Virus record (IMG/VR): IMGVR_UViG_3300023174_000378
Location: 1-36,466 of that record
Strand: one strand, 5' to 3'
Source: a virus
DNA: 36,466 nt
Within the stretch, counting starts at the first letter, position 1, and each line of letters begins with the position of its first letter. A program made the translations under genes and the position numbers. This document shows positions 7,321-35,993 of the stretch, piece by piece. A model generated the notes under the pieces. That model saw only the letters and a program-made list of their open reading frames with translations. It was not told the origin of the DNA and searched no databases.

Positions 7321-7337
7321 CAACTTAATTTAATCTT

Positions 7338-8408
7338 ATGAGTGAATTTAAAGTCAGAGCACTTGATTCTGATGGGCAACCATCCATTCAAGAAAAGGAA
7401 CAGCAAAATCAAGCTCAGCTTGAGTTGCAACAACAACAGCAGACTCCGCCCGCCCCGGAGCCCCCTGCAAAACCAACTATCGAAGAGGGCGACGTTCTTT
7501 CATTTATTAAAGAAAGGTACAAAAAAGAGATTTCCTCTATTGACGACCTTCTTGTTGCGCCTCAACAGCCAGAGCAATTACCCGAGGACGTGTCTGCATT
7601 TCTCAAGTATAAGAAAGAGACCGGTCGGGGAATTAGCGATTTCATGAAGCTCAATCAAGACTTTGACTCGGCTGACCCCGACCAACTTCTTTTGGACTAC
7701 ACCATAGCCCAAGAAGAGTATTTGGACCGGGAAGACGCTGTCGGAATCCTAGCTGACAAGTTTGGATACGATGAAGATTTAGACCAAGAGTCGGATGTCA
7801 AAAAGAAAAAGGCCGCCAAGAAGAGGGAATTAGCCAAAGCAAAAAAGTACTTTAACGATTTAAAAGAGCAATACAAAGTTCCGCTTGAGTCAAGAGGGAG
7901 CTTGCCCGAAGAATCGCCAGAGTATAAACAATACAAAGAGTACCTTGACAGAGCCAATAGCGAGCAGCAAGAGGCAAAGCGAAAAGGAGAGTGGTTCCAA
8001 AAAAAGACGGAAGAACTTTTCTCACCCGAGTTCAAAGGTTTTGAGTTCGGTATCGGTGAAAAAAAGTACACTTTCATGCCCGGTGAAGCTTCTGAAATCA
8101 AGAGTCAAAACTCTACTCCGGTAAACCTTATTTCAAAGTTTATCGACGAGCAGGGATTGATTAAGGATGCTGCTGGTTATCATAAGGCTCTTTCAATCGC
8201 GATGAACCCGGATAAGTTTGCGAAGTTCTTCTACGAGCAAGGCGTGGCCTCTGCTACGGAAGACATGGCAAAAAGAAGCAAGAATATCAACATGGATATT
8301 CGGACTACTGGACAGCCAATCGGAACAAGTGGGGGAATCAAGGTTGCGGATGTAAGCCCAACATCGTCAGGAATGGGATTGAAAATTAGACCTTTTAAAA
8401 CCTCTTAA
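7338..8408 (+). CDS. Scaffold-like protein between portal and capsid genes
   Basis: 356 aa. Residues ~15-48 are Gln/Pro-rich low complexity. Residues ~50-240 are highly charged and helical, with a Lys-rich patch near 153-175 (KKKKAAKKRELAKAKKYF). The C-terminal ~50 residues are Gly/Ser-rich and end KIRPFKTS. The location between portal and major capsid protein, and the acidic/basic helical composition, are those of head-assembly scaffolds, which fill the procapsid and are lost or cleaved before packaging. No protease motif is visible, so the scaffold may leave whole or be cleaved by another factor. It has its own promoter and lies two bases before the capsid gene. Confidence 0.75.
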   Translation: MSEFKVRALDSDGQPSIQEKEQQNQAQLELQQQQQTPPAPEPPAKPTIEEGDVLSFIKERYKKEISSIDDLLVAPQQPEQLPEDVSAFLKYKKETGRGISDFMKLNQDFDSADPDQLLLDYTIAQEEYLDREDAVGILADKFGYDEDLDQESDVKKKKAAKKRELAKAKKYFNDLKEQYKVPLESRGSLPEESPEYKQYKEYLDRANSEQQEAKRKGEWFQKKTEELFSPEFKGFEFGIGEKKYTFMPGEASEIKSQNSTPVNLISKFIDEQGLIKDAAGYHKALSIAMNPDKFAKFFYEQGVASATEDMAKRSKNINMDIRTTGQPIGTSGGIKVADVSPTSSGMGLKIRPFKTS

Positions 8409-8410
8409 AA

Positions 8411-9910: not shown

Positions 9911-9917
9911 ATTGTGT

Positions 9918-9950
9918 GAGAGGGGGTGTTTGAACACCCCCTCTTTTTTT
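9918..9950 (+). terminator. Intrinsic terminator after the capsid gene (hairpin copy 2)
   Basis: Arms GAGGGGGTGTT (9920-9930) and AACACCCCCTC (9933-9943) pair perfectly over at least ten bases and are followed by seven T (9944-9950). It is a textbook rho-independent terminator just past the capsid stop. Its core GGGGTGT/ACACCCC stem is shared with three other sites in the window. Confidence 0.92.
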
Positions 9951-9972
9951 ATTTCACTTAAATCCAAATAAA

Positions 9973-10689
9973 ATGTCAAAAACCTATAAGTTAATCGGAG
10001 GCTCTGCGCCTATGAGCTTTATGCTTGCAAGCAGAAACACAGTAGCAAAACGTCTTTACCACTTTGACGGCAAAGTCAATCGTGAGTTACGTTATGCTCG
10101 AAATCAAAAAAGCCCTTTTGTTGATGAACAAGATGGCAATTTCATTCTTGAGCCTATTATTTTTGAAGATGGCTTTTTAAAAGTTGAGGACTCAAACCCT
10201 GTTCTTCAGAAGTTTTTAGAGGTTCATCCAGATAATGGAAGTCTATTCGTAGAGGTAGACAACAAGAGGGACGCTCAAAAAGAACTGGACTATTTAGAGC
10301 TTGAAGCTGACGCTTTGGCAAAGGCGCGGACTTTGGATTACTCAATGATGGAGAACGTGGCTCGTATAGCGCTTAGCATTGACCCTTCCAGGATTAGCAC
10401 AAGCGAATTGAAGCGTGACATTATTGTTTATGCAAAAAACAATCCGGAAGAGTTTTTGTCAATCGTTAACGACCCAAATGTCGCTCACGATGGCTTAATC
10501 GCTAGGTTGTTTAGCTATGGAACTCTTGTTGTGAAGAGAAACGCGGTTCATTACAATTTGTCCAACAACAAGTCAAAATTGCTCATCATTCCGGCCGGTC
10601 AAGATGCCCATGAGGCGGTTAGTTCTTACTTTATGACCGAAGAAGGGGCTCAAGTGATGGCTACGCTTGAAAAATATATTGCCGAATAA
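9973..10689 (+). CDS. Conserved capsid-proximal protein, function unknown
   Basis: 238 aa. The N-terminus GGSAPMSFMLASRNT is followed by LRYARNQKSPFVDEQDGNFI, patterns I associate with the gene directly after the capsid gene in Bacteroidota phages. Residues ~85-170 are Glu/Leu-rich helical and the C-terminus is mixed. There is no transmembrane segment or enzymatic motif. It lies downstream of the capsid terminator, so it is expressed by read-through or from a promoter I could not pinpoint. It is likely a minor head component or head-assembly factor; that is inferred from position and conservation of layout only. Confidence 0.7.
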   Translation: MSKTYKLIGGSAPMSFMLASRNTVAKRLYHFDGKVNRELRYARNQKSPFVDEQDGNFILEPIIFEDGFLKVEDSNPVLQKFLEVHPDNGSLFVEVDNKRDAQKELDYLELEADALAKARTLDYSMMENVARIALSIDPSRISTSELKRDIIVYAKNNPEEFLSIVNDPNVAHDGLIARLFSYGTLVVKRNAVHYNLSNNKSKLLIIPAGQDAHEAVSSYFMTEEGAQVMATLEKYIAE

Positions 10690-10693
10690 TTTG

Positions 10694-10701
10694 TATATTT
10701 G
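10694..10701 (+). promoter_or_regulatory. Promoter -7 element before the first paralogue
   Basis: TATATTTG matches TAnnTTTG, 14 bases before the ATG at 10716. A TTG at 10667 could be a poor -33 element with long spacing. It starts just after the upstream stop. Confidence 0.55.
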
Positions 10702-10715
10702 TTCAAATTTTAGAC

Positions 10716-11396
10716 ATGGTTACATTTTTGCAGATTCCGGGAAGAATTTTTTCGGATTCTAGTCTTCAACTCGTTGATTACTATTTATCAGTTGACTTTA
10801 TTGGAGAATTAGCCGCGTCATCCGTTGGCGCTGGAGCCGCTGAAACTGGTAATACCACGGCTGGAAATTCAAATGTTAGGCTATTTTCAAGGCCAACTAT
10901 TTCAAGCTATGAGCATGTTGATATTACACTTCTTTCGGCTGATATTTCTAGAAACTTCCATTTGCTAATGGCTAATGCTTTAATTGCAGCTAAATCCCCA
11001 AAAGCTAATGGGTCTTTTTATTCATTGCCATTGGATTTGTTTTACAATGATGGAGCTGGAGTTGCGTTTCGGGATTTATCCGTAGGCTCTGGAACATTCA
11101 ATAGTGGGACTCAAATTACAAATGTCAACTACAATGGTGTAACTGATACGCTTCCATTTACAACATCCGCTAACCACAACTTGAAGGTTGGCGACAGGGT
11201 TCAGTGTACTTTTGGCGACCTATCAAATGCGCCTCTTGTGGCAATTAGCGGATACTATGATGTAGTAGCCGTTGACAGCGCCACCATTTTTAGGATTATC
11301 CCAAGAGCAGTAACAGGGGCGACCTCTGGAGCATTAAGTGCTACTACGGTACTGATTAAAGCTAATAACCTTATCTCATCAATTACTTGGAACTAA
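10716..11396 (+). CDS. Beta-rich structural protein, paralogue 1 of 4
   Basis: 226 aa. The N-terminal core (~1-115) starts MVTFLQIPGR and contains VDITLLSADISRNFHLLMANALIAA, parallel to the other three paralogues. A C-terminal module (~143-205) has TDTLPF, then ANHNLKVGDRV, then SGYYDVVAVDSATIFRIIP. This is a small beta module seen repeatedly in phage structural proteins (pattern H-x-L-x-V-G, then G-x-Y-x-V, then F-x-I-x-P). The protein is Ser/Thr/Asn-rich with no signal peptide. With its neighbours it forms a tandem family between the capsid and tail-adaptor genes, so a head-decoration or head-to-tail role is plausible but unproven. Confidence 0.7.
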   Translation: MVTFLQIPGRIFSDSSLQLVDYYLSVDFIGELAASSVGAGAAETGNTTAGNSNVRLFSRPTISSYEHVDITLLSADISRNFHLLMANALIAAKSPKANGSFYSLPLDLFYNDGAGVAFRDLSVGSGTFNSGTQITNVNYNGVTDTLPFTTSANHNLKVGDRVQCTFGDLSNAPLVAISGYYDVVAVDSATIFRIIPRAVTGATSGALSATTVLIKANNLISSITWN

Positions 11397-11397
11397 T

Positions 11398-11706
11398 ATG
11401 GCTAATTTTTTAAAAATACCACAGGCAATCATTACGGGCAGTACAACTGGTAATGTGTACATAAATTTAGACCTTGTTTTGGATATTCGTGTTTCTAGTA
11501 CTAGCACTGTTGTTTTTCGTATTGGAACGGGAGAAGCTGGAAATGACGTAATTACCTTTACATTTAGTTTTGCTGATACAGCAGCGATGAAGGACTTTAT
11601 TGACAAAGTCGTCGCCATGAAAGCTCCCGGAAAAACCCCTCCACTTGGGCAATATGAATTGCCTACCCTAGTAAATAACAGAACATTAACTATTGCTATC
11701 GCTTAA
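11398..11706 (+). CDS. Small beta-rich structural protein, paralogue 2 of 4
   Basis: 102 aa, essentially the bare core: MANFLKIPQA, then LVLDIRVSSTSTVVFRIGTG, then TFSFADTAAMKDFIDKVV, and a closing strand LVNNRTLTIAIA. The STVVF and TFS-x-x-D landmarks recur in the 96-aa paralogue at 12387. It starts one base after the previous stop, so translation is coupled. The Gly/Thr-rich beta pattern and lack of enzymatic residues suggest a virion component. Function is otherwise unknown. Confidence 0.65.
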   Translation: MANFLKIPQAIITGSTTGNVYINLDLVLDIRVSSTSTVVFRIGTGEAGNDVITFTFSFADTAAMKDFIDKVVAMKAPGKTPPLGQYELPTLVNNRTLTIAIA

Positions 11707-11710
11707 TAAT

Positions 11711-12319
11711 ATGGCTAAGTATATCAATTTCACATCTGCGGTTCAGGGCGTTGGCGCTGCAAATACAACCGTGACAGTAACGACCCAACCGACACTTGCT
11801 ACAACTAACGGGTCTACCGATACTCTTCAAATTAACTGTGATGCACACGGATTATCAGTCGGTTCTCCGATTTCTATTTTTTGGAGTACCGTTGGCACTG
11901 CAAATGCCGCTGCTTTAGGGCTTGCTGGTGATTATTATGTATTTTCAGTACAAGATGTAAATAACTTTACCATTATTCCTACGGCAGCAACTAGCCCAAG
12001 TCGTGGTACTGGAGTGCTTGATGTTCGTAGGCGTATTGCTTCTCCAGTGTTGATTGACCCAAATAAGATTATTTATATCTCAAATCCAACGACTTCTGCT
12101 GTTGAGTTAAGATTGGCAACATCAAATCAATCAACCGAAACCATTCGAATTGTATTTAGTTCAGCGGATGCCGCTTATGCAACGCATGAGTTTATTGCCC
12201 AGGCAATTACTAAAGCCGCATCCGATAGTATGGGATATTCTGGTGCTGCTCTTGAGATGCCTTTATTGCCTAATAATACCGCTGGTGCCCAGAGAGTCGT
12301 AGGTTTTACTCGTTTCTAA
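11711..12319 (+). CDS. Beta-rich structural protein, paralogue 3 of 4
   Basis: 202 aa from the ATG at 11711, four bases after the previous stop. The frame is open from 11693, but that ATG lies inside the upstream gene and gives a tail (MLSLNN) absent from the paralogues. Residues ~37-100 are the beta module (TDTLQI, DAHGLSVGSPI, AGDYYVFSVQDVNNFTIIP). Residues ~110-202 are the paralogue core (AVELRLAT, then VFSSADAAYATHEFIAQAI, then LPNNTAG). The order, module then core, is the reverse of paralogue 1. It is followed by a terminator. Confidence 0.68.
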   Translation: MAKYINFTSAVQGVGAANTTVTVTTQPTLATTNGSTDTLQINCDAHGLSVGSPISIFWSTVGTANAAALGLAGDYYVFSVQDVNNFTIIPTAATSPSRGTGVLDVRRRIASPVLIDPNKIIYISNPTTSAVELRLATSNQSTETIRIVFSSADAAYATHEFIAQAITKAASDSMGYSGAALEMPLLPNNTAGAQRVVGFTRF

Positions 12320-12336
12320 TAAGACCATAATTATTT

Positions 12337-12373
12337 AAAGCCACCCCCTGGAACTCAGGAGGGTGGCTTTTTT
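12337..12373 (+). terminator. Intrinsic terminator after paralogue 3
   Basis: Outer arms AAAGCCACCC (12337-12346) and GGGTGGCTTT (12361-12370) pair, with an inner CCTG/CAGG stem, loop GAACT and one bulged A. The T-rich run continues to 12373. It sits three bases before the next promoter box. Confidence 0.9.
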
Positions 12374-20766: not shown

Positions 20767-21168
20767 ATGAAAATTAGGCAAATTCAAGACGGAGATTACG
20801 AGAACATCCTCACCAAGTGGTGGGGGGAGTGGGGTTTTGAATCTGCGCCTCCAAAAGAAATGCTTCCTGATACTGGCTTTATTGCTTTTGACGAAGACGT
20901 TCCTGTATGCTCCTGCATGGTTTACATGACTAATTCAAAAATAGCTTGGATAACATGGGTTCTGTCAAATCGGGAATATCGCAAAAAACCAAATCGTAGG
21001 TTAATTCTCAAGGACATGCTTGAAGAGGCGTGTCAAAGCGCTAAAAGAGCAGGATATAACGCGGTCTTTACCGTCACAAATAACGCACATGCAATCCGGA
21101 ATTTTAAAGATGCCGGATTTATTACATCATCAACCAATGCACATGAACTTGTAAGATTATGGGACTAG
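20767..21168 (+). CDS. GNAT-family N-acetyltransferase
   Basis: 133 aa. The fold order is visible: an N-terminal strand (IRQIQDGDYENI), central strands (GFIAFDEDVPVCSCMVYMTN, then IAWITWVLSNREY), the acetyl-CoA-binding turn and helix (RKKPNRRLILKDMLEEACQS), then AVFTVTNN and FKDAGF. GNAT enzymes move an acetyl group from acetyl-CoA to an amine. The usual Q/R-x-x-G-x-G/A pyrophosphate loop is degenerate here (RKKPNR), so activity is uncertain. Phage genomes often carry such a gene among virion genes; its substrate is unknown. It is first in the ejection operon and overlaps the next gene by ten bases. Confidence 0.8.
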   Translation: MKIRQIQDGDYENILTKWWGEWGFESAPPKEMLPDTGFIAFDEDVPVCSCMVYMTNSKIAWITWVLSNREYRKKPNRRLILKDMLEEACQSAKRAGYNAVFTVTNNAHAIRNFKDAGFITSSTNAHELVRLWD

Positions 21169-21944
21169 AAACAGCAGCAATTATCGCTTTATCGGCAAGC
21201 GCAGCGGCAACAACCGCCGGCACGGCTATGTCTTTCGCTCAGGCCGGCAAGCAGCGCAAGGCCGCGGAAAAAGCTAGAGAGTCAGCGCAGCGCGCAGTCA
21301 ACGAAGCCAAAGCTCAACTTGGCGTCAATTACCTAGATGCGCTATCCCTCCCGACGACCGCATACGAGGCCCAACGCGAGGCCGTAGGGCAGCAGGCGGC
21401 AGATATATTAGCCGAGGCAACTCAAGGCGAACAGCGGGGCGTTGGTGCAGCCGCAGGGCGCGTTATGGCGGCCCGCACGGAGGCCGAACGCCAACTGAAT
21501 ACACAGATAGCCCAAGACATGTTCCAGCTTGAGCAAATGAAGAAAGCTGAAGACGCAAGGCTTGGAAGCGCATTGGCCGGGCTTTCACTTGGAGAGGCCG
21601 AAGGTGCTCAGCTCGCGGTCAGAGAACAAGAGGCGGCCCGGGCGAGGTCTATTGCGCAGGGAGTGGCGGGTCTTGGCGATTTAGCAAAGCTTGGGATGCA
21701 AGCTGCTCCTTTGTATCCTAAAACCGACACGACTACAACTGCAAAAAATTCTGCGCCTATCAACTTAGAGCAACCGGCGTCCCTTGGCTCGCCTGTTGTT
21801 GCGGCTCCCGCTCCGGCTCCGGATGCTCAATTCCCGTCTATGGATAGGCAGAATGCAATTTTGAATTATTACAACTCAATTTTTGACACCGGTAGCGCCG
21901 GGCAATATTCTCCAATTTTTGGTTCAGTTACAATGCCTAAATAA
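21159..21944 (+). CDS. Probable internal virion (ejection) protein with N-terminal membrane segment
   Basis: 261 aa. Residues ~4-28 are an Ala/Ser/Thr/Gly hydrophobic segment (ETAAIIALSASAAATTAGTA), followed by a long Ala/Glu/Gln/Arg helical region to ~175 that would form a coiled coil. The C-terminus is Pro/Ala-rich (~195-225) and ends SVTMPK. This resembles T7 gp14-type internal core proteins, which insert in the outer membrane to begin the ejection channel. It sits between the GNAT gene and two larger internal-protein candidates, overlapping the next ORF by TAATG. A minor structural protein without an ejection role is the alternative. Confidence 0.65.
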   Translation: MGLETAAIIALSASAAATTAGTAMSFAQAGKQRKAAEKARESAQRAVNEAKAQLGVNYLDALSLPTTAYEAQREAVGQQAADILAEATQGEQRGVGAAAGRVMAARTEAERQLNTQIAQDMFQLEQMKKAEDARLGSALAGLSLGEAEGAQLAVREQEAARARSIAQGVAGLGDLAKLGMQAAPLYPKTDTTTTAKNSAPINLEQPASLGSPVVAAPAPAPDAQFPSMDRQNAILNYYNSIFDTGSAGQYSPIFGSVTMPK

Positions 21945-23593
21945 TGACATACTACAAATACGCGGAACGTACCGCTGACCAATTTATTAATTGGCGAGAG
22001 ATAGGTAAGAGCATAAGCGACACGATTCAGGAGCAGAGCAAGATTCGGGAGGAGAAGAAAGCCACTCTCGACAAGGAGTTCCGTGAAACGATGAAGGCCG
22101 TCGTTGATTCGCCCCAGGGGACGGACAACGAGGTCAACTCATGGACTTTAAACGTCACGAACAATGCCGCCGAGTATCTTCGGACTATCAATAACGAGCT
22201 AAAGGCCGGGCGCATGAGCCCAAAGGATTTCACCATTGCGAGGCAGAATGTGACGGACGACGTAAATGGTTTGTTCGCCCAGATTAAGTCGTATCAAGAG
22301 TGGCACAAAGGCCGTCTTGCTCGCATTCAATCTGGGAAGGCTTCAGGCCTTGAGTTATCGCTTAATGAACAAGCGGAAAAAATTGCCGACCTGAAGAACA
22401 CTTCTGGATACTTTGACCCCATGACTGGCAGTTTGTTCTTTTCAAAGACCGACGAAAGCGGTAAGCCAGATAGGTCGAGCTTGCTTTCGGCAAAAAACAT
22501 GTTCAAGATTACCGGGACGCAAGTTGATAAATACGACTTGAACTCCGAGTTGGTCAAGATGGGTAAGATGTTCGCGCCATATAAAAGAGTCATCGGAAGG
22601 TCCGGCGTTCAGACAAAGGATGACGTGACTCTTCGTAAGGGGTTTGATGAAGTAAAGAACAGCACCTTTGGCGCCATATTAGACAACCCCTATACGGCTG
22701 CGAGCATTCTCACCGACAATGGTCTTGACGGCTATACCTACACGACCGGTGAACCGAAAAGCGATAAGGAAATCAAGATAGTTCAAACGCCAAACGGTTA
22801 TCAGCCTCAGATTACCGACACTCAACGGAAAGCCGCCATGGACTTTATGGAGCGCCAATTATCCGTCTACCTACCTTACGAGGAAACACCTATGCCAAAG
22901 GCATCTACAACGACTGGCGATAAAGAAGATAAAATGACAGACAATGAGAAAGCGGCTCTTGGGACAATAAAAAGCTTATACTCAGGGACACCGGCTCAGA
23001 AAAAAGTCGCCGCAGATAGGCTCGCCAAGAAACTAGGAGTGACAAAGATTGACTACACAAATGAGGGAATTATTGCTACAAAGCAAGTCGTAGAAGGTGG
23101 TAAGACAAAAACCATAAAGACAACGTATCCCTACGGAAATTCATTGAGTGAATTTGCCTCAAGTGGTCTTGCAGACGTTTTGGGCGCTGGTGGCCTTCTT
23201 GCTCGCCCCGAGCTTGAAATGGGGGCAAAGAGGTCTTCCGGAACGGGTAGTGTTTCGGGAACGAAAGTTATGGTTTCACCACCATCAAAGTCTCAACACG
23301 AAGGAATTATTGAAACAATTACCAAAAATTTGGAAGGCGCTTCTTTTGACACAAGAGATGGGGATGAGCTTGCAAAAGCCGTTGATGCTTACAAATCTAA
23401 ACTCAAAGAGTTCGGATTAGACTACAATGTGGTAAAGGATTCAAAAAATCCGGCTCTCAGGAAGTTTTTTGACCGAAATTCAGGGGCCATTGTAGTAATT
23501 AATGTTGAAAAGGGAGAGGGCAATATAGGCGAGCAATACGCCGAAGCATTCAGAGCGCTTAACGAAAAAGTCCAACAAAAAATTAACGAATAA
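21944..23593 (+). CDS. Probable internal virion / cargo protein (549 aa)
   Basis: 549 aa, soluble and charged. The N-terminal ~170 residues are helical (DQFINWREIGKSISDTIQEQ). The mid region mixes helical and beta segments. A Thr/Asp/Lys linker (~315-330) precedes a second part with LAKKLGVTKIDYTNEGIIAT, a Gly-rich stretch (LGAGG near 405) and a C-terminal helix. No transmembrane helix or catalytic signature is visible. The order small membrane-active protein, medium soluble protein, giant protein parallels the internal-protein cassettes of podoviruses (T7 gp14, gp15, gp16), which is the main reason for the call. It overlaps the giant gene by TAATG. Confidence 0.6.
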   Translation: MTYYKYAERTADQFINWREIGKSISDTIQEQSKIREEKKATLDKEFRETMKAVVDSPQGTDNEVNSWTLNVTNNAAEYLRTINNELKAGRMSPKDFTIARQNVTDDVNGLFAQIKSYQEWHKGRLARIQSGKASGLELSLNEQAEKIADLKNTSGYFDPMTGSLFFSKTDESGKPDRSSLLSAKNMFKITGTQVDKYDLNSELVKMGKMFAPYKRVIGRSGVQTKDDVTLRKGFDEVKNSTFGAILDNPYTAASILTDNGLDGYTYTTGEPKSDKEIKIVQTPNGYQPQITDTQRKAAMDFMERQLSVYLPYEETPMPKASTTTGDKEDKMTDNEKAALGTIKSLYSGTPAQKKVAADRLAKKLGVTKIDYTNEGIIATKQVVEGGKTKTIKTTYPYGNSLSEFASSGLADVLGAGGLLARPELEMGAKRSSGTGSVSGTKVMVSPPSKSQHEGIIETITKNLEGASFDTRDGDELAKAVDAYKSKLKEFGLDYNVVKDSKNPALRKFFDRNSGAIVVINVEKGEGNIGEQYAEAFRALNEKVQQKINE

Positions 23594-26500
23594 TGGCTAA
23601 ACAGCAGAATGACCTTTTACGGGCATTGAAACAAGCAGAGCCCGTGAAGGGCGCTGTTAAGGTTGACCTCAATGCCATATACAGAGCGCAGCAGCAAGCC
23701 AAGACTCCGTACTTGGCATCGGAGGCCGCTGCCATTCCGAGTGAAGAGCTAGAGCTCAAAACCGAGGAACTTCTCACGCCTGAGTTCTCTGAGCAAATCA
23801 AGTCAAAAACCGAAGCGTTTAGAGAGCAGTTCGCTGAAGAACTGGCCACCGGTGCGGCGGCAAAGTATCGCGAGGAATCGGATGCGCAGCCGGCCGAGGA
23901 AACGGCGTTAGTCCCATTGTCTGAGCTCGCTATGATTAGCGGGTCAATCTTGGATATGACCAAAGACGTACCGGGCGAAACCAATGCGTTTGGCTATGAT
24001 GCTACGGCTCGTCTTCGGAAGAAGGAGCGCGTCTTGGATGAGCTGAAGAAGAATTACGGGAAGTACGGGTTTTCTTTTGATTTGACACCCATGGGCAACT
24101 ATGTCGCCCGAAGCAGTAGCGGAAACATTGAGGTTGATTTGTACGGCGATGGAGCACAGGCGGCCGATAAGCTGAAAGGCTTTATCGCAAAAAACGCCAA
24201 AAAAACGCAGTACCAAAACGAGGAGTTTGTTGACCTATCATTAAAGGCTCAGGAAACAAGGCCGGCCGCCCGAATTAATCCTGACGGAACTAGGTCTACG
24301 CATTTGTTTACGACTATGGAGGTTGACGGCAAACATTACGCTGTTCCAACCCTATACCAAAAGACACCAAATTCTCAATCGTCCGACCCGAATGATTGGG
24401 TTGAGTACAAGAATCCGGAGGAGGCTTTTAAGGAAGCGGTTCGGAGAGGCGAGTTGTATCAGTTTGACACCAAGGGGCAGGCGGAGTCTTTTGCGAAAGG
24501 TTCGTGGAAGAGTATTAATCAAGGCGACTTGATTCGCAAACAAGTAGCGGAGCAGAACGGCATTGAGTACGGGGTAATGAAGCAGAACGAGCTCGAGCGA
24601 AAGTATAGTCGTGAAGAAATTAATAGCCTAGAAGATGCTATTGATATTTTGTCGTCTAATCGCCCGGGGCTTGAGCCCCAAAAGGCTCGACTAGCCGCTA
24701 AGATGAAGAAGGCTTACGGCGTAGGGACCGTTGATGGTTTAGAGAAGGTCCTTGACGAAAAGCGCAAACAGAAAGATTCCATAGAGGATTATTTTCAGTC
24801 ATTGTCCGGCATTCGTCAGGAGGCCGACCGGCAGCTTGAGGTAGAGCGCAAGAAGGTTGAACAACAAGCGATTGCTTTGAATCGTGAAGTGAAAACCATT
24901 CAAGGAAATCTCAACCAAAAATTCCATGACTATTTCGGTGTTCCATTTCTTACCGAAGAGGGAACTATCAATCCGGAAATCAAGAATATCAAGCCATCGG
25001 ATGCGGCTTCGGCGAGGGTGTTTAACGAATCCATTGACGCCTACAATCTTTTAGCTCAACGGCAAAAGCAAGCGGCTCAGGCATATCTCAAAGAGCGTAC
25101 TTATTTTGATGCCAAATACGACAAGGAGGCCCAAGATAAATATGTGGGTGAATGGCGGGGATTATGGAACTCCATTCGCTCTGGGTGGAATGAGGGAAAG
25201 ATGTCAAACGTGGTCTTAGATGCGCAAGCCGCAAAGATTGCAGGCGATGAGGAAAAGCTTGCGATATACAACGAGCAGATGTTCAAAATGATGAACGACC
25301 CGGCTATATCAACGGCGATGTCGGTTGGTCAGGAAAGAATTGCCGAAGCGACAGAGTCAGGAGAGTTCGGTGATTATTTGCGCGCTCTTGGGGCAAATCC
25401 TTCGACGTTTATTTCGGGCGTAGCAAATATGATGTTAAACTCTATGGCCCGGATGTTCCCGATTTTATGGAAGACTGGCTCGGTCATTGTCCCCGTGTCA
25501 ACGGCTATCGGCGGAGCTGTTGGCGGTGTACCGGGCGCTAGGGCCGCTTTTTCTACCAGTATGAAAATCGTCAATGCCGCTAGCGGTTTTTCGCTAGAGT
25601 ACACGGCGTCTGTTCTTGATGCCATCCGCAAAAAATACAACACACTCGAGAAAGCCCAAGAGGGCGAATGGCTTAACGACCCTGAGGTATGGGAAGAGGC
25701 CAGAAACATCGGCGTAAAGCGCGGATTGACCATTGCTGCTGTTGACGCCATTACGGCCGGGGTGCTCGGCAAAATAGCGCCGTCTTCGCTTGCGTCAACG
25801 GCTCGCAGGACGACTCAAGCTGTCGGTCAGGCTTTGGCTATTGAACCGGTATCGGAGGCTTTTGGTGAAGCAGCGGCTCAGTTCGTGTCAGGCCAAGAGT
25901 TAAATTCGGTTGAGATACTTGGTGAAGCGCTCGGAGCCGGAGGTATGTCGAGCAACCCGCTCACCCTTGCGGACGTGGTATACCAACAGACCCGAAAGGA
26001 TTACTATACGAACCTTGCTGAGAAAATGGCCAATAGCCGTTCGTTTCTCAACGACATGGACGAAGACCTAGGCAAGGTCACTCAATGGGCGAACAACATG
26101 CGGACGACCGGTCAGATTACCGGCGTGACCGAGCAGCAGATTCTCGAGAATGTGTCTGTGGTCAGGGAGGCCCGGCAGATGATGTCGGCTACGGCTCCAA
26201 CAAACGCCCAACGGTTGTCGCAGCTTGCGCTTGGTACTAGCAGTCGTGCTGAGTCCCGATTGGCGGACTTGATTGCGGCAAAGAGGCAGTTGGACAGAAC
26301 GCCAACGATTAATCAACCCATGCAGCAGGCCGTTCAGGATGAAATGAACTACATCCTTCAGAACAAAAAGGTTCCCGAGCAGCGCGTGGACTTGGCGCCA
26401 ATCATTGGTCTTACACCAAAGTACTACATCAACGGGAAGGCTTCATTGCGTGAGGACGTGGCGGCTCTTTTAGACCCAGCAAAGGGGGCAGATGACCAGC

Positions 26501-29500
26501 TCAAGGACTTGAACATTTCCATTGAAGGGGATGAAGAGCTATTGGATAAGTACGTCACCCGGATGGAGTCAATCTTTGACAAAGAAGATTACGAGGACGG
26601 CAAGGTTATGCTTGCCGCTGAAGACATCAATGAGATTCCGGCGGAGTTCAGGCCGGAAGCGGTCTTTAATGAAGAAACCGGCCGGCATGAGGTTACTGTG
26701 CCGGCGGATAAGGTGGAGAACAAAGACATCGCCAACATAGCCGTGCGCCCGAAGTCGCAACTCGAAGCCGCTACGGCTGCTATGAAGGAAGGCAAGCCCG
26801 TGTACGCGAAGGACACGAAGAGCGGCAATGTTTATTTATTGGAAGACCAAGCCAAGATTGACGACGCATACTCGAGAGGTATGTCGTTGCTGCTTGGTGG
26901 TCCAAGCACAAGGGGTGTTCAAACACCCCTCCCATTGCCGAAGATTAAGACCGACAAGATTAAGGCCATCAAGGACTCGCTCAAGAGCATGAGAGCCGAC
27001 ATCGGAACGATGAACAGCTTTGGAGCTGGTATGGGTAAAAGCGTGTGGAATTTCGCTATTGACTCAGCGATTCTTGCAATCGAGGCCGGAGAAAGTGTAT
27101 CCGCTGCGGTTGAGAAGGCGGCAGATTATATTGACTCAAAAGTTACCGACTTTAAGCGCTCGGACTTCGTGGCTTATATGACAGGTCAGCTCACAGAAAA
27201 AGAGAAAGAGATTGTACGTCAAGCAAGAAGCACAGACTTGCCTAGCGGTTTAAAAGTTATCAAAGGTTTTTATTCAACTATTGAACGACGACTGCTTACA
27301 TCAACGGTTGAAAAACAAAGTGCAACCAAGTGGTTGCAGAGCGGAATTTTTGGTGGCGATGAAGGAGAGTTTACCGGTGCAAGAGCGTTCCTTCAAGCCA
27401 AGCGTCCTGACGAGCAGGTTGAAAAGAAAGAACTGCTTGATTACATTAAGAAAAATCGCGTCAAGATTAGCGTAAAAAAAGACAAAAACAAAGAGTTTGA
27501 AGACTATACAGTAGAGCAGGGCGGTGAATATCAAGAGATAATCATTGAATGGGATGACGCCAATTTTCCAGATTCATTTGATTTTGGCTCTCATTATACC
27601 AACAAAACTATTGCCCATTTAAGATATGTTATCAGAAAAGACAAAGACGGAAACAATGTCTTGTTTATTGAAGAGGTTCAAAGCGATTTAGCGCAACATA
27701 TAAGAAAGGAACGACAAAAACAAAAGGAAGACCCAGGCTATACGCCAAATGTAGTTTCCGCCCCATACGTCGACAACACCAACACATGGGTGAAGTTGGT
27801 TTTAAAAGTCGCCTTACAAGAAGCTGTTAAAAAGAATGTAACAAAAGTAGCATGGACAACAGGGGAACAACAGAAGGCTAGATATAATCTATCCGACAAA
27901 ATAAGTTTTATATTGTATACAAAAACCGACTCCGGGTATAAAATATATGCAGCCGATGAGAGTGGAAATCCCATTATTGAGGACTATCCTTTTCAAGAGA
28001 ATGAATTACAAGCAGCCGTTGGCGATGAAATTTCAAAAAAAATCATAAATGGAGACGGCGAAAAACAAAGCGACGGACGTATGCTGTTGCATGGTTTGGA
28101 CTTAGAATCAGATGTTCGTGGTAAAGGCATGGTTGCTTTTTATGGCTCAATAGATGAAGGAAAAGCCGGAACGGTTGAAAACATGATGTACGCCCTTGTT
28201 GAAGAGATAACCGGCAAAAAGCAAGACGCAAAAACTATTGAGTTTTCAACTACAAAGAAAGTAAGGGGGGAAGTAAGTGATGAGGACAAGGATTTTTATA
28301 GGGCGGAAGCAAAAGAAAAACTCGGCAATTACCTCAAGGATGAGTATTTAGAAAGGGACTTATACGAATTAATTAATGATAATTCTGATTTTTATTATGA
28401 ACAAACCCTTTATGAGGATGGAGAGCCAAATAATTTTAAAAAGTTTTTCAAAAAAGGAACTCAAATGGCCAAGGTTGAAGATGCTTTGGCAGAATTGGAT
28501 GAATTATACGTCGAAACTTTAAACAATGTAGCAACAGAAACAAAAACGATTTACACCAAGCACCGCTCAGTAGATATTACCCCTCAAATCGTTGAGAAGG
28601 TTAAGTCGGGTATCCCCGCATTCAACGACGAGAAGCTGTCGATTGAGCAGAGAGCCGAGAAGATTCGCCAGAAGATGTTTGCGATGAAGCAGAAGATTGG
28701 CGAATCCGAGAAGAGGAAGTCCTTAAATGGCCCTGAAAGAATGGCGATAGAAACGCTTGTTCGCAGATTAGCGTGGAGGATAGGCATGAAAATTGACGAT
28801 AGCAATTTCATAGCCAACCCAAACGAAAGATGGAAAGGGAAATATGACCCAAGGACTCATAGTGTAATGATAAATTTTGCGTATGTAACAAAAGACACAC
28901 CATTTCACGAAATCCTTGGACACCCGATAATATACGCCTTAAAGAACGGCAGTCCTGAGTCAAGAGAATTATACGAAAATCTTGTAAAAGAATTGCAAGA
29001 TAGTCCTGAAGGAATTGCTGCATACAACATGGTATCGCAACTTTATCCAGAGCTAACTGAAGACCAAAAGATTGAAGAAGCGTTGGTGACATTGCTCGGA
29101 CAACTTGCTAGCGAGAGTTTTGATAAGAAGTCAAAACTTGGAATGTTGCTTGAGAGACTTTGGAATTTTATCAGCGAATATGTAAGGGAGCTTCTTGGGA
29201 AAGACGTGATAAAGGTTGGGGAATTGAAGCCGACCACTACGATTCAAGACTTAGCAGATATAATGGGGTATGGAGAAAACCTTATTGCATTGCCGGGAGC
29301 AGAAATGAGTTTTAGAACTCCATTCGGAGAAACATACACTTCCATTGAAGAGGTAAAGCAAGACATGGCTAGGGCCGGAGCGGCAACAACGCTAGAGTTC
29401 CCAAATGAACCCGCTGTTGGCGCTAGAATAAAGCGGCTTATTTTATCATACCTATCCGAAGAAAATAGGTCAAGGGCCGAGAACGTAATGAGCTCTATAA

Positions 29501-32500
29501 AGGAGTTATTAAGTGAGATAACGGCTTTTAATTATTATGACTCTATAACGGGTAAGACTTTTGAGTATAAACTTACTCCTGCTGAAATAGGTGAAGGATT
29601 ATACTGGAAAGTAACCGATAAGGAGTCAGGGCAAGTCAACTTTACAAGAAAACACGAAAAAAACTTTGAAACTTCTATTGCATTTGGTTTAGATGGCGAC
29701 CCTAGGCATTTGATAACTGAATATATCAGAATGCTAGAGAAATATTATTCGAAAGAAGAGCAATTTGCTACGTCAAAAATGATTATTGACAAATGGAAAT
29801 CTAACTATCGCATTAAATACAACCCTCAAGAAGCTTACGACCGAGGCTATGGTTTTTATCATTACATAGGAACTGGTATGTCAGGGAACGGAGTAGACGC
29901 ATTACCTGTTTTACAGAATATTATCCGTTTTTTAGATTTACAAGAGTCTATTGGGGGCGAATACTCCTTGTCGTGCCTAAACAAGTTAGCGTCTCTTCCG
30001 ATAATGCCACAGGGGGCAAACCCATCACATCATTTTAAAAGCGGAATAAGGATTGCTATTTATCCAAATAGTGAAGATATTATTTTTGCGGCTAATGATG
30101 ATGTTTATTCTGGCGCAGCTGGGTATGAGGCGTCATCGGCGTCCCCTGCATTTATGATGTATCGAGATACACCATTAAAGGTAAGGGGTAGGATTGGTAT
30201 ATCGTTATTGACATATCCAGAATCTCACTCATTTAGCGCCGTAAAAAATAGCATACTAGAAGCCATCATTGGCCCAGATGGCATGGGCGACATCAATGAG
30301 CAAAAAGGAATGCACGGCTATAATGAGGTCGGAATAAAACTAAAGAAAGGCCGATTTAAAATTGAGTACGACGAATCGGTTAGTCCGGAAGTAAAAAAAA
30401 TGATTGACTACATAAATAAAAGTCACGGCATTTCAAACGACCAAATTCCTCAAATAAAAGAAAATGTGTTATACGGGATTACACCCGGGAGCTATGTGCG
30501 TTTAATGATTGACCCAGCCAATCAAATTCTTAGTCAAGGTTATGAGCCTGCTTTAATAAATGTGACAAATGTTCACAAAAATCCAGACCCTAAAAGGATA
30601 GCTAGTCTTGAAGAAGAATTGGCTGAAATAGCAAAAAACATTGAGTCATCTTTAAACAAAGAAGCCCTAAAGCGTTTTCAAAATGCCGCGTCTTTAATAA
30701 AAGACAAAGGCTTTATTGATAATTTTAAAACGTTTTTGGTTTCGTACCCTTTTGATGAAGATGCGGCTTCTTTTTTGTCGGAGTACATAAACAAAAAAGT
30801 ATCCCCGATAGACTTTCAAAACCTAATAGACGATTACAACTCGGTTGTAAGACAAATTGAAGACATCAAGACTAATAGGGTGATGTTTGATGGAATAATT
30901 ATGAACAACGATTATAGCAATGTAATTGTTGAAACAGAATCCGGAATAAGAGAATACAATAATGTAAAAAAGGGTAAGATTTTTGTATCAAACATAAGTG
31001 ATAAGTTTGTTGATAAAAGCGCTCTTATTAATTATCAATACGCCCAAGGGGAAAAGGCTGTATTTCCCAAAGAATCAGAGAAACTTAAAAATCAACCATA
31101 CGACAACGACATATTAAATAATAGGAAAGCATTAGAAAAAAACAAAAAGAAAGCACTTACACAAACCTTAAAATTCGTTGAGGCTCTTGCTCAAGCAAAC
31201 CGAGAGTTCCCGCTAGCGCTACTCGAAACAAGCGTCAGTTTTGCCGGCTTTCAACCAAACGAAGACACGGACGTTCGTTTTTCTCGCGTTCCAGAGAACG
31301 ACCAAACTTTGTATGGCGCAATAAACGACGCAAGAAACGAGGGCCTGACAGACGGGGAGATTAAGCGCAGAATGCAACAAGAAGGCTATTCATCCTCAGA
31401 CATCAATGAGGCAATGACGATTAACGTCGGTGATAAGGAGAAATTGCCGCGCGCATTTACTATGGTCGAGGGCGGGGCGTTCGCCGGGTACAGCATGTAC
31501 ACCAATGTTCAGCAGAAGATACGGCGCTTTGCGAAAAAGGAAGTCAACGGAGAGAAACCATCGAGCGCAAAAATCCGGGAGTTCGCAATGCAAGAGCTGT
31601 CCAAGCATCCTTTGTTCTTGTCGTCGTCGGATTACCTGCAAATGAGCCTTATGGCTGACCTTGACGCAACGCTGAACACCACGGCGAACACGGCCATTCA
31701 GGCGCAGATGAAGCGCATTCGTGAGGCCATGCGTAACATCAACAAGGGCGCCCGTGAGCTGAACGAAATCAGAAGGCAGTTAACTATACTCATCAAGTCA
31801 AGTCTGCCTAGGACGATGTACGCTAAGGCTGAGGTGATGGCTTTGCTGAAGAAGGTATCCTCAGCAAATCGCGAGAACATCGCCGAGATTCGCCGAGAGG
31901 TCGCTGACTTTGTGATTGGCGTCAGAGTGCGCGCTACGAGGGCCAAGTTGCTCAAGCAGCTTGCCGCTGAAACCACCAAGAAGGAAGGCGGTAGGGTAAA
32001 GGGCAATTTCAGCACGGCCATGCAGGAGCGAATCGCTAAGATTAAGGGGATGTTGCCGGACGAAAAAGCCTCCGTAGAAGAGATTCAAAAAGCCATTGTC
32101 GCATTGAACTCCGAGTACACCCGGCTTACCGAGTTGGTTATTGACGAAGGGAAGGACGAGTACGCCGAAGACCTTGCCGATGTTGAGTTCGCATTGAAGT
32201 TTGCGGCCACGATGCTTATGGACGACATTGAGGAAAATAAACTCATCGCTCTTGATGAATTGTATTCCTACATGAAGGACTTTCTCAAGACCGGGCGGGC
32301 AGCGTTCAAGGACGAACTGAAGGCGCAATCAGAGTACTACAACAAGCTCAAGAGGCAGCTCCTCAAGGACATCACCGGCGGCGATTACAACGTCAATTTC
32401 AACGACAAGAAAGCCGTTGATAAGGTGGAGAGAGCGCTTATGGGTGAGTCGGTCCAAAAGGAAAAACAGCGTTCTTTCGGGAAGGTTCTTCGCTCATTTG

Positions 32501-34647
32501 TAGATGACACCATTGGCGCTATGCTAAGGCGGACAGAAGACCTTGCCGGTCTTGTCGATAGAATATCAAACATGACGGGCGAGTTTTTCGGTGGTGTCAG
32601 TAAAAAACTTATCGTTGACCGAGTGCGTGAATCTCGCGCAAACTTGAATAAGTTGAACAACGACGCAATGGCGTATCTCCAAACCAACGCCGAGCAAATC
32701 TTCGGCAAGGGCTGGAAGAAGATAATGATTCAAAACGGCAAGAAGAAGTTCACCTACATAATGGACCCCAAGGGGTATCAAAAGGTCTTGAAGACCGGTG
32801 ATAAGGTCGCCATACAGGCGTTCTTGCTTCAGAATGAAGCGCCTATCAGCCAGAACGAAATGTACTATCTGTACAATCAGTTCAAAGACCCCGCCAATCA
32901 CCCCGGCTTTGAGACAAAGTTCGGCCCCCAGTACAAGGAGATAATGGCTGAAATAACATCGAAGCTTGACCCGAAGGTGAAAGAGTGGGCCGATTGGCAG
33001 GTTGAGGAGTTTTATCCAAATATGTACCCGATTTACAACGAGGTTTATCGTCGTGTTTATCGCACCGACTTGCCTTGGAATCAGTTTTATGCCGGTCGGC
33101 TGTATCGGGAATCCGCCGATGGGCAGGAGGCGCCAAGTCTACTTGAGAAGCCCAGCGAATTTATCACAGCGGTTGGGGGAGCGTCAACGAAAGAACGCGT
33201 CAGAAACAACAAAGCCGTCAAGACAATGGACGGCGATAAAGTGCTCACGTCTTATGTGCGCGACATGAATTTCTTTGCGTCTTACGCTGAGTCAATTCGC
33301 GACATCAAGAAGATGCTGAACAACATCACGATTCGTAAGGCGATTGAAACCCGTGTCGGCAAGGACATTTACAGCCTCTTGAACATAATGACCGATAGGC
33401 TTATCACGGATGGCTTCGGGAAAGGAAAAGAGAATGACATTCTTGACGCCGGGTTTAAGACCTTCGTTTACGCGAAACTTGGACTTAACCCAAAAATTAT
33501 GCTCGCTCAGGCAAGCAGTTTTGTAGGGTTTATTCCATTCATTGGATATGGCTCTTATGCTAAATACGCCACTAGAGCATTCTCTGATTTAAGAAAGGGC
33601 AAAGAGTCTACGGCTTACAAAACTTGGGCCGAAATGATGGAAAACTCAGAATATTTGAAAGCGAGGTTTTCAACTTCAAATATTATGGAGATAATGTCCA
33701 CCTTTTCGGACTCCAAGAGAGACGTTGTTCTTGGGGGGGACAAGGGGTTATCCATTGATAACTACGCGAATGTCATGATGTACTTCATCAAGCAAGGTGA
33801 CAAGGCCGGTGTTATGGGTAGCGTTCCAAATTACTTGTTCTACAAAGAGCAGTATATCAATAAGCAAAAAGCAGCCAAGAAAAAAGTTTCCGAACAGGAC
33901 GCCATCAAATACGCGCTCAAGAAAATTGAGGCTCAGGTTAAGTCCGTTGCTCAAAGTAATGACGTTGAAGATAAAGACTTTTTCCAGACGGGCTCTACGG
34001 CATGGAGGATGTTTGGAGTATTCCAATCTCAGCCAAAGCAATATTTCCGTTTGGAAATGTACGCCATCCGTAACATCTACAAGCAACTGATGGGGCTTAG
34101 CGGCGCGAAGGGAACGCTAGGGCAAAACATAAGGCTCTTTGTGACCGTTCACTTGGTCGCTCCGGTCCTGTTCCAATATCTCATGCTTGGCTTACCCGGG
34201 ATACTCACGGACTTTGACGATGACGATGACGAGGAGTTGGTATGGGCCGGAGTTCTTGGTAACTTGAACGCAATATTCGTTATTGGTGATATTTTCCAAA
34301 AAATTCGAGACATCGCTCTTGGCAAGCCTTGGGCGAAGGATACAACGAGTATATCCGCTTTTAGCGTTATCGCCGACTTAGCCAAAGAAGGAAAGGCTAT
34401 TTTTGATGCCAAGACTGATGAAACAAGGACTAAGCACATCGTTCAGTTCTCTCTTCTTCTTAGCGAATTGTCCGGTATACCTGCTGCTACGCTATTCAAG
34501 CTGTCACAGAACTGGTATAAAGTAGCAACTGGCGATGTTGACAATTTTGGTGAGGCTTTGTTGAGGCTTTTCAATTACAGCGAATACACCATAAAAGGCA
34601 AAGAAAAAAAGGCGAAAAGCTTTGAAGAACTTAAATTTGAAGAATGA
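23593..34647 (+). CDS. Giant polyvalent virion protein (3684 aa)
   Basis: One uninterrupted frame. Residues 227-306: a domain with NPDGTRSTHLF and FAKGSWK, seen in other phage structural proteins. Residues ~606-735: two hydrophobic Gly/Ala-rich segments, possibly membrane-inserting (TAIGGAVGGVPGARAAF). Residues ~1225-1525: a phage polyvalent-protein domain with FIEEVQSDLAQ (1358-1368), VAWTTGEQQ and GKGMVAFYG. Residues ~1715-1860: a zincin-like domain with HEILGH (1772-1777) and Glu1828/1829. Residues ~2080-2540: an unrecognised module ending DVRFSR. Residues ~2700-3100: coiled coil. Residues ~3110-3684: a C-terminal region like large polyvalent-protein domain 38, with a hydrophobic segment (3515-3537) and a run of Asp. 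It is likely packaged in the head and ejected with DNA. Residues ~1200-2540 are AT-richer than the flanks. Confidence 0.75.
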   Translation: MAKQQNDLLRALKQAEPVKGAVKVDLNAIYRAQQQAKTPYLASEAAAIPSEELELKTEELLTPEFSEQIKSKTEAFREQFAEELATGAAAKYREESDAQPAEETALVPLSELAMISGSILDMTKDVPGETNAFGYDATARLRKKERVLDELKKNYGKYGFSFDLTPMGNYVARSSSGNIEVDLYGDGAQAADKLKGFIAKNAKKTQYQNEEFVDLSLKAQETRPAARINPDGTRSTHLFTTMEVDGKHYAVPTLYQKTPNSQSSDPNDWVEYKNPEEAFKEAVRRGELYQFDTKGQAESFAKGSWKSINQGDLIRKQVAEQNGIEYGVMKQNELERKYSREEINSLEDAIDILSSNRPGLEPQKARLAAKMKKAYGVGTVDGLEKVLDEKRKQKDSIEDYFQSLSGIRQEADRQLEVERKKVEQQAIALNREVKTIQGNLNQKFHDYFGVPFLTEEGTINPEIKNIKPSDAASARVFNESIDAYNLLAQRQKQAAQAYLKERTYFDAKYDKEAQDKYVGEWRGLWNSIRSGWNEGKMSNVVLDAQAAKIAGDEEKLAIYNEQMFKMMNDPAISTAMSVGQERIAEATESGEFGDYLRALGANPSTFISGVANMMLNSMARMFPILWKTGSVIVPVSTAIGGAVGGVPGARAAFSTSMKIVNAASGFSLEYTASVLDAIRKKYNTLEKAQEGEWLNDPEVWEEARNIGVKRGLTIAAVDAITAGVLGKIAPSSLASTARRTTQAVGQALAIEPVSEAFGEAAAQFVSGQELNSVEILGEALGAGGMSSNPLTLADVVYQQTRKDYYTNLAEKMANSRSFLNDMDEDLGKVTQWANNMRTTGQITGVTEQQILENVSVVREARQMMSATAPTNAQRLSQLALGTSSRAESRLADLIAAKRQLDRTPTINQPMQQAVQDEMNYILQNKKVPEQRVDLAPIIGLTPKYYINGKASLREDVAALLDPAKGADDQLKDLNISIEGDEELLDKYVTRMESIFDKEDYEDGKVMLAAEDINEIPAEFRPEAVFNEETGRHEVTVPADKVENKDIANIAVRPKSQLEAATAAMKEGKPVYAKDTKSGNVYLLEDQAKIDDAYSRGMSLLLGGPSTRGVQTPLPLPKIKTDKIKAIKDSLKSMRADIGTMNSFGAGMGKSVWNFAIDSAILAIEAGESVSAAVEKAADYIDSKVTDFKRSDFVAYMTGQLTEKEKEIVRQARSTDLPSGLKVIKGFYSTIERRLLTSTVEKQSATKWLQSGIFGGDEGEFTGARAFLQAKRPDEQVEKKELLDYIKKNRVKISVKKDKNKEFEDYTVEQGGEYQEIIIEWDDANFPDSFDFGSHYTNKTIAHLRYVIRKDKDGNNVLFIEEVQSDLAQHIRKERQKQKEDPGYTPNVVSAPYVDNTNTWVKLVLKVALQEAVKKNVTKVAWTTGEQQKARYNLSDKISFILYTKTDSGYKIYAADESGNPIIEDYPFQENELQAAVGDEISKKIINGDGEKQSDGRMLLHGLDLESDVRGKGMVAFYGSIDEGKAGTVENMMYALVEEITGKKQDAKTIEFSTTKKVRGEVSDEDKDFYRAEAKEKLGNYLKDEYLERDLYELINDNSDFYYEQTLYEDGEPNNFKKFFKKGTQMAKVEDALAELDELYVETLNNVATETKTIYTKHRSVDITPQIVEKVKSGIPAFNDEKLSIEQRAEKIRQKMFAMKQKIGESEKRKSLNGPERMAIETLVRRLAWRIGMKIDDSNFIANPNERWKGKYDPRTHSVMINFAYVTKDTPFHEILGHPIIYALKNGSPESRELYENLVKELQDSPEGIAAYNMVSQLYPELTEDQKIEEALVTLLGQLASESFDKKSKLGMLLERLWNFISEYVRELLGKDVIKVGELKPTTTIQDLADIMGYGENLIALPGAEMSFRTPFGETYTSIEEVKQDMARAGAATTLEFPNEPAVGARIKRLILSYLSEENRSRAENVMSSIKELLSEITAFNYYDSITGKTFEYKLTPAEIGEGLYWKVTDKESGQVNFTRKHEKNFETSIAFGLDGDPRHLITEYIRMLEKYYSKEEQFATSKMIIDKWKSNYRIKYNPQEAYDRGYGFYHYIGTGMSGNGVDALPVLQNIIRFLDLQESIGGEYSLSCLNKLASLPIMPQGANPSHHFKSGIRIAIYPNSEDIIFAANDDVYSGAAGYEASSASPAFMMYRDTPLKVRGRIGISLLTYPESHSFSAVKNSILEAIIGPDGMGDINEQKGMHGYNEVGIKLKKGRFKIEYDESVSPEVKKMIDYINKSHGISNDQIPQIKENVLYGITPGSYVRLMIDPANQILSQGYEPALINVTNVHKNPDPKRIASLEEELAEIAKNIESSLNKEALKRFQNAASLIKDKGFIDNFKTFLVSYPFDEDAASFLSEYINKKVSPIDFQNLIDDYNSVVRQIEDIKTNRVMFDGIIMNNDYSNVIVETESGIREYNNVKKGKIFVSNISDKFVDKSALINYQYAQGEKAVFPKESEKLKNQPYDNDILNNRKALEKNKKKALTQTLKFVEALAQANREFPLALLETSVSFAGFQPNEDTDVRFSRVPENDQTLYGAINDARNEGLTDGEIKRRMQQEGYSSSDINEAMTINVGDKEKLPRAFTMVEGGAFAGYSMYTNVQQKIRRFAKKEVNGEKPSSAKIREFAMQELSKHPLFLSSSDYLQMSLMADLDATLNTTANTAIQAQMKRIREAMRNINKGARELNEIRRQLTILIKSSLPRTMYAKAEVMALLKKVSSANRENIAEIRREVADFVIGVRVRATRAKLLKQLAAETTKKEGGRVKGNFSTAMQERIAKIKGMLPDEKASVEEIQKAIVALNSEYTRLTELVIDEGKDEYAEDLADVEFALKFAATMLMDDIEENKLIALDELYSYMKDFLKTGRAAFKDELKAQSEYYNKLKRQLLKDITGGDYNVNFNDKKAVDKVERALMGESVQKEKQRSFGKVLRSFVDDTIGAMLRRTEDLAGLVDRISNMTGEFFGGVSKKLIVDRVRESRANLNKLNNDAMAYLQTNAEQIFGKGWKKIMIQNGKKKFTYIMDPKGYQKVLKTGDKVAIQAFLLQNEAPISQNEMYYLYNQFKDPANHPGFETKFGPQYKEIMAEITSKLDPKVKEWADWQVEEFYPNMYPIYNEVYRRVYRTDLPWNQFYAGRLYRESADGQEAPSLLEKPSEFITAVGGASTKERVRNNKAVKTMDGDKVLTSYVRDMNFFASYAESIRDIKKMLNNITIRKAIETRVGKDIYSLLNIMTDRLITDGFGKGKENDILDAGFKTFVYAKLGLNPKIMLAQASSFVGFIPFIGYGSYAKYATRAFSDLRKGKESTAYKTWAEMMENSEYLKARFSTSNIMEIMSTFSDSKRDVVLGGDKGLSIDNYANVMMYFIKQGDKAGVMGSVPNYLFYKEQYINKQKAAKKKVSEQDAIKYALKKIEAQVKSVAQSNDVEDKDFFQTGSTAWRMFGVFQSQPKQYFRLEMYAIRNIYKQLMGLSGAKGTLGQNIRLFVTVHLVAPVLFQYLMLGLPGILTDFDDDDDEELVWAGVLGNLNAIFVIGDIFQKIRDIALGKPWAKDTTSISAFSVIADLAKEGKAIFDAKTDETRTKHIVQFSLLLSELSGIPAATLFKLSQNWYKVATGDVDNFGEALLRLFNYSEYTIKGKEKKAKSFEELKFEE
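26911..26930. repeat. Copy 3 of the GGGGTGT/ACACCCC hairpin (inside the giant gene)
   Basis: AGGGGTGTT, CA, AACACCCCT: nine-base-pair arms. It is read through as RGVQTPL in a Ser/Pro/Leu linker (residues ~1107-1113), about 280 bases before the AT-rich part of the gene. There is no T-tract downstream. Confidence 0.8.
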
Positions 34648-35687: not shown

Positions 35688-35993
35688 TTATTCTTTGACG
35701 AAGGTTCCATCGATTGTTTTACCGGTTCTTTCTTTGATTTCTTCATACGCAAGGTGTAGTGCTTCAACGATGTTTACTCCTCTCTGTTCGGCGAGGATGA
35801 TAATGGTGACGAGCACATCGCCGAATGCGTCGTACTCTTCGCGGCGTTTGCCTTTCAAGATAGCCGAAGAAAGCTCTCCGAGCTCTTCGACGACCTTCAT
35901 GAATTGCTTGGGGAAATTATGCGAATCGCTTATCGCTTTTTCCTCGGCCCATAGGGCGATTTTGTCTTGTAGTTGTTCAAATGTTTGGTTCAT
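35688..35993 (-). CDS. MazG-like nucleotide pyrophosphohydrolase
   Basis: 101 aa. The all-alpha NTP-PPase signature is visible: KVVEELGELSSAIL (E-E-x-G-E) followed by KRREEYDAFGDVLVTIIILA (E-x-x-D-x-x-x-D), the acidic cluster that binds Mg-nucleotide. Such enzymes hydrolyse NTPs or dNTPs to the monophosphate. Phage copies are thought to affect nucleotide pools or host alarmone signalling. It overlaps the upstream 68-aa gene by ATGA and lies one base before the next gene, so the minus-strand genes form one operon. No specificity can be read from sequence. Confidence 0.87.
   Translation of the reverse strand: MNQTFEQLQDKIALWAEEKAISDSHNFPKQFMKVVEELGELSSAILKGKRREEYDAFGDVLVTIIILAEQRGVNIVEALHLAYEEIKERTGKTIDGTFVKE

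Follow-up and report, generated by a model that had tools for sequence, protein, structure and literature searches.

A 3684-residue phage protein with a conserved C-terminal chassis and an exchangeable internal slot is a candidate ejection protein

We analyzed a 36,466-base IMG/VR virus record (IMGVR_UViG_3300023174_000378; hereafter the window), in which a single giant open reading frame occupies 11,055 bases (30.3%). The encoded protein is built of modules that vary in a regular pattern: one internal segment between a zincin-like domain and a long helical C-terminal chassis has been exchanged among close relatives. We consider it probable, at about two chances in three, that the giant serves a short-tailed phage as a large ejection protein of the N4 and T7 gp16 type, with an exchangeable effector. 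An earlier note made from the sequence of the window had proposed a polyvalent virion protein at this locus and had missed the exchange slot, an unusual HExxxH motif, an ejection-type gene trio and the resemblance to N4 vRNAP. The giant gene, its parts and the two genes before it lie on the plus strand.

Results

The giant open reading frame is conserved

The giant gene, P0001 (positions 23593 to 34647), starts with ATG and runs for 3684 uninterrupted codons in one frame, exactly as the earlier note had described it. A second IMG/VR contig of 62 kb (L001), with a tail gene 93% identical to that of the window, encodes a 3609-residue homolog to which the giant aligned over its full length. Comparison of the two giants yielded dN/dS values of 0.05 to 0.16 in most conserved segments, indicative of purifying selection. 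With this full-length homolog and these dN/dS values, sequence comparison indicates that the giant frame is real and conserved and not a chance occurrence.

Pfam and PHROGs searches of the protein returned nearly nothing above cut-off, and its parts were delimited through relatives, most of which are metagenomic. A match to DUF6715 (E=1.7e-4) fell below cut-off and was set aside. The protein was clearly modular and did not present as a single long structural fold, and about half of the domains listed in the earlier note were recovered: a polyvalent-type block, a zincin-like domain and a module lacking recognizable relatives stood, and a C-terminal LPD38-like region was not supported by sequence.

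One segment is exchanged between near-identical flanks

The giants of the window and L001 are 95 to 100% identical over most of both ends and only 25 to 65% identical across residues 1501 to 2530 (28093 to 31182). Synonymous divergence broke in the same way, with dS of 0.1 to 0.2 in most of the flanks and of 0.74 to saturation within the segment. Because dS is saturated inside and low outside, residues 1501 to 2530 appear to be a replaced cassette. Fast point evolution under positive selection could also lower identity here, and the zincin core within the segment is indeed less diverged than its surroundings. Saturated synonymous sites bounded by low values argue against such an origin, as do other groups of relatives in which flanks are 90 to 100% identical and slots are only 13 to 22% identical with different families inside; we regard it as very improbable.

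Exchange at the same slot was also observed within independent close groups of giant loci (L010/L011, L020/L024/L027, and L033/L038/L039). Relative to L038 and L039, L033 carries about 300 extra residues overlapping an ART-PolyVal match above cut-off, and the L020 slot contains a GNAT domain, also above cut-off. Slots did not differ in every pair, as L007/L008 and L028/L029 retain theirs, and slot types recur on divergent chassis, as with L027 and L010, which share theirs with Flavobacterium phage elemo. A comparably abrupt break occurs in Cellulophaga phages phi19:3 and phi46:3, where identity is confined to residues 1 to 915. From these sequence patterns, the slot appears to hold an interchangeable segment, for which close relatives carry a predicted ADP-ribosyltransferase, a predicted GNAT acetyltransferase or unknown modules.

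The slot of the window matched none of the other slot types compared, and no enzyme fold was assigned to it. Its module at residues 1930 to 2550 (29380 to 31242), part of which (about 2080 to 2540) the earlier note had singled out as unrecognized, has one relative, in L001, at 51% identity; searches of IMG/VR, GTDB genomes, phages and the other slot types found no relative beyond it. AlphaFold2 (AF2) modeled the module mostly at pLDDT below 50. A model of the zincin-like domain with the module reached pLDDT 51 and was usable only in the helices of the zincin and in one small alpha-beta portion. A combined alignment (A7) intended for one long model was dropped due to misaligned zincin rows.

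A different content was seen in the middle of another giant (L040, positions 899 to 8551), where we detected a C5 cytosine DNA methylase (E=1.8e-24), GNAT, DUF7178 and three HExxH sites. On sequence grounds, this protein is a candidate injected DNA-modifying polyvalent protein.

A polyvalent-type block precedes a zincin-like domain with an HExxxH motif

Residues 1100 to 1700 (26890 to 28692) form a block common to phage polyvalent proteins. Its core (residues 1333 to 1525), with the motifs AHxR, EExQSD, AWTTGEQ and GMxxFY, was found in at least 229 confirmed viral stretches, which supports the polyvalent-protein domain proposed earlier, although no Pfam model matches this block. The block also occurs in a giant protein of a Dolichospermum phage that bears four ART-PolyVal matches. 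This 2387-residue hypothetical protein of phage Dfl-JY45 (L046, positions 5193 to 12356) combines the four ART-PolyVal stretches (266.8 bits) with the AWTTGEQ block.

A zincin-like metallopeptidase domain, likewise anticipated in the earlier note, was identified at residues 1690 to 1930 (28660 to 29382) by alignment with relatives, in which the HE pair and a downstream EE are invariant. The relatives share the consensus (I/V)NL-x-T-x-HExxH followed by the downstream EE. The motif of the window is HEILGH (HExxxH; residues 1772 to 1777, 28906 to 28923) and that of L001 is HEILAH, whereas the other full-length relatives carrying the domain have HExxH. Measured against the zincin signature of HExxH with a downstream Glu on the next helix, the downstream EE is conserved and the window motif is one residue longer. 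Both motif helices were modeled by AF2 at pLDDT 76 to 85. The longer spacing may mean that the zincin of the giant is inactive, but it is no proof of inactivity, since the active site of dipeptidyl peptidase III is HExxGH.

The C-terminal chassis is conserved and helical

Residues 2555 to 3680 (31255 to 34632) constitute a helical chassis of about 1,100 residues that is supported by IMG/VR relatives, HMM searches, AF2 and searches of BFVD. The chassis is present in about 38 IMG/VR loci, and its identity in IMG/VR relatives was 29 to 40%. The AF2 model (pLDDT 67) was nearly all helix. In a BFVD fold search, it resembled the C-terminal portions of further giant phage proteins, many of them labeled after ART-PolyVal or large polyvalent domains; we take this likeness as a family resemblance and not as proof, because the TM-scores were modest (0.2 to 0.6). 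PDB searches by sequence and by fold gave nothing significant.

The earlier note had likened this region to large polyvalent-protein domain 38 (LPD38; PF18857). This label was rejected, as the profile had no match in P0001 or in 11 relatives, whereas the same search was positive in 7 of 29 other giant-protein loci. Whole-length profile comparison of the chassis with LPD38-type C termini was also negative. Weak profile similarity to these C termini appeared in a sub-region, and whole-length hhalign against the C2 part of the N4 virion RNA polymerase (vRNAP) was negative while a sub-region scored weakly (24.7, against 20.9 for the best of 40 decoys). Since the regions were picked by eye, we treat sub-region matches as leads only.

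Separately, the region preceding LPD38 in other loci (L136-L142), a sub-region likewise chosen by eye, aligned with the C terminus of N4 gp50 and other Schitoviridae vRNAPs (hhalign E=1.6e-4; score of 31.8 versus a decoy maximum of 13.4). This alignment suggests a common C-terminal part in LPD38-type proteins and in N4 vRNAP.

N-terminal part and hydrophobic segments

Residues 590 to 940 (25360 to 26412) form a conserved N-terminal part, consistent with the earlier proposal, with profile matches in L040, phage ctfjg026, L013 and L016; one N-terminal profile scan matched L001 and L045 only. Hydropathy analysis located two Gly/Ala segments within this part (residues 628 to 646 and 711 to 729). 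The Gly/Ala segments that the earlier note had suggested are thus present as two marginal ones, and its list lacked a stronger pair near the C terminus (residues 3515 to 3533 and 3549 to 3567). These two hydrophobic helices flank an acidic run (DDDDDEE) and are a candidate membrane hairpin (residues 3515 to 3567, 34135 to 34293). Overall, the hydrophobic segments of the giant are short and marginal, which counts against an ejection role.

The giant gene closes a trio within the late virion genes

Terminase, portal, capsid-type and tail-type genes and structural phrogs lie upstream, so that the giant is encoded among late virion genes. It is the last gene of a small-medium-giant trio. The first gene (261 residues, 21159 to 21944) matches phrog_13764, a virion structural protein (E=1.8e-13), and is a candidate small ejection protein, gp14- or gp52-like by position only. 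The second (549 residues, 21944 to 23593) matches phrog_35506 and is a candidate tunnel protein, gp15- or gp51-like by position only; its homolog adjoins the giant gene in ctfjg026. In five phages (the window, phi18:3 as gp120, phi38:1, Gundel_1 and ctfjg026), phrog_13764 occupies the same position. The same trio is found in Pachyviridae, as gp120-gp121-gp123 of Cellulophaga phage phi18:3 and gp72-gp73-gp74 of Tenacibaculum phage Gundel_1. The Gundel_1 giant has a zincin and a C terminus in common with the window giant. Both giants are shorter than that of the window (1935 residues in phi18:3 and 2482 in Gundel_1), and that of phi18:3 has no HExxH.

GenBank marks the trio counterparts of 227, 499 and 1935 residues in phi18:3 with the remark "annotation based on experimental MS/MS proteomics analysis." Virion presence is thereby established for the phi18:3 trio only, and together with the phrog_13764 virion protein two genes upstream of the giant it supports the virion role proposed in the earlier note. 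The window giant had no direct sequence match to phi18:3 gp123; the two are linked by position, by the small gene and by Gundel_1, which matches phi18:3 in its N-terminal part and the window in its C-terminal part.

The 1554-residue tail protein of the window matches Cellulophaga, Flavobacterium and Tenacibaculum phages. With such relatives, we infer a Bacteroidetes host for this virus.

Other genes of the window were also annotated. A stand-alone GNAT acetyltransferase gene (20767 to 21168; PF00583, 21.4 bits with a cut-off of 20.7) lies among the structural genes, and an acetyltransferase is annotated at the equivalent site in ctfjg026. A 141-residue ORF (14 to 439), which by eye has a lipoprotein-like signal (LFAGC) at its start and a hydrophobic helix at its end, could be a one-piece spanin. 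A 188-residue ORF (1814 to 2380) matched Cpn10/GroES weakly, below cut-off; phages phi19:3 and elemo have GroES-like genes ahead of the terminase. After the late genes, a 101-residue ORF on the opposite strand (35688 to 35993, minus strand) appears MazG-like by eye.

Discussion

The conserved chassis and variable middle of the giant support an ejection role, and the layout of the protein and its gene trio match those of N4 vRNAP and T7-type operons, which leads us to propose ejection of the giant along with the DNA and an effector in the slot. Most likely, the giant is carried inside the virus particle and driven into the bacterium together with the genome, and it likely works like N4 vRNAP. 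N4 vRNAP is ordered as a membrane N-terminal domain, cargo, an HExxH domain and a helical C2 part of about 1,120 residues (PMC12633501). Coliphage N4 gp50 (Schitoviridae) and the window giant are alike in a length of about 3,500 residues, a hydrophobic N-terminal part, cargo, an HExxH-type domain and a helical C-terminal part of about 1,100 residues, and both are encoded last in a small-medium-giant trio. No segment of the window giant matched an RNA polymerase domain in Pfam or PHROGs. We do not claim membership in the N4 vRNAP family because of this absence and the negative whole-length profile comparison. Podovirus ejection genes are ordered small, medium and large, and domain swapping between ejection proteins is known (PMC8954989). 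The T7 gp14-gp15-gp16 operon has this order, although the last protein of the window trio is much larger.

For the giant of the window, we infer ejection, membrane insertion, proteolysis and effector activity as follows. The giant would be packaged in the virion together with the products of the two preceding genes and would exit through the tail, with its hydrophobic parts helping it to traverse the inner membrane or to anchor there. Packaging and delivery would be the task of the conserved C-terminal chassis, and the middle would be cargo consisting of the polyvalent-type block, the zincin and one exchangeable effector between zincin and chassis. The zincin might either cut the chain to free cargo or attack host proteins. 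Recombination among related viruses would replace one effector by another, as an arms race against host defense would predict.

The giant could instead be a virion structural or scaffold protein, for instance part of an internal core or of the tail, that remains with the particle and bears its variable middle as structural decoration. The chassis is long and helical, relatives are annotated as structural proteins only, and the MS/MS data that place the phi18:3 counterpart in virions are silent on its destination. Such a role is nonetheless unlikely, since the middles of relatives bear enzyme domains (ART-PolyVal, GNAT and C5 methylase) and wholesale swapping between near-identical flanks is unexpected for a structural element. 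We find it less likely still that the middle works chiefly within the cell that makes it, or against rival phages (superinfection exclusion), and that its packaging is incidental. The late-gene position would lead to synthesis late in infection, and swapping is typical of inter-phage competition too, but fusion to the large protein of the trio and MS/MS detection of its counterpart in virions favor delivery with the DNA.

The giant also resembles the large polyvalent proteins, in which zincins occur with a proposed processing role (Iyer et al. 2017, PMC5512222). Shared properties are several apparently unlike domains per chain, a zincin-like domain, a late virion gene context and a similar C-terminal fold, together with ART-PolyVal and other effectors in relatives of the giant. 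By homology, the window giant combines a zincin-like domain with the polyvalent-type block, which may differ in activity, and several enzymes are recognized in its relatives. It differs in lacking a Pfam polyvalent domain above cut-off and in its constant chassis with one hot-spot slot, its module without relatives and its HExxxH motif. The pairing of a constant delivery part with an exchanged effector part is also the concept of polymorphic toxin systems, although here it is found in a candidate phage ejection protein and the putative effector is internal rather than C-terminal. More tentatively, and with the odds somewhat against it, the family may be a virion-borne launcher, in which a constant delivery chain and a protease are combined with a recombination hot spot that loads effectors, the slot of the window holding an effector family uncharacterized in both fold and activity beside a zincin with a six-residue HExxxH motif.

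Polyvalent and ejection proteins have mostly been described singly, and relatives that differ almost only in one segment provide a natural experiment. The N4-like layout bears on how proteins of about 3,500 residues pass through a short tail, and delivery and processing could be tested in the cultured relatives (Cellulophaga phage phi18:3, Tenacibaculum phage Gundel_1 and the Flavobacterium elemo phages). Comparing slots points toward new enzyme families and toward the earliest phage cargo to reach hosts of the Bacteroidetes type.
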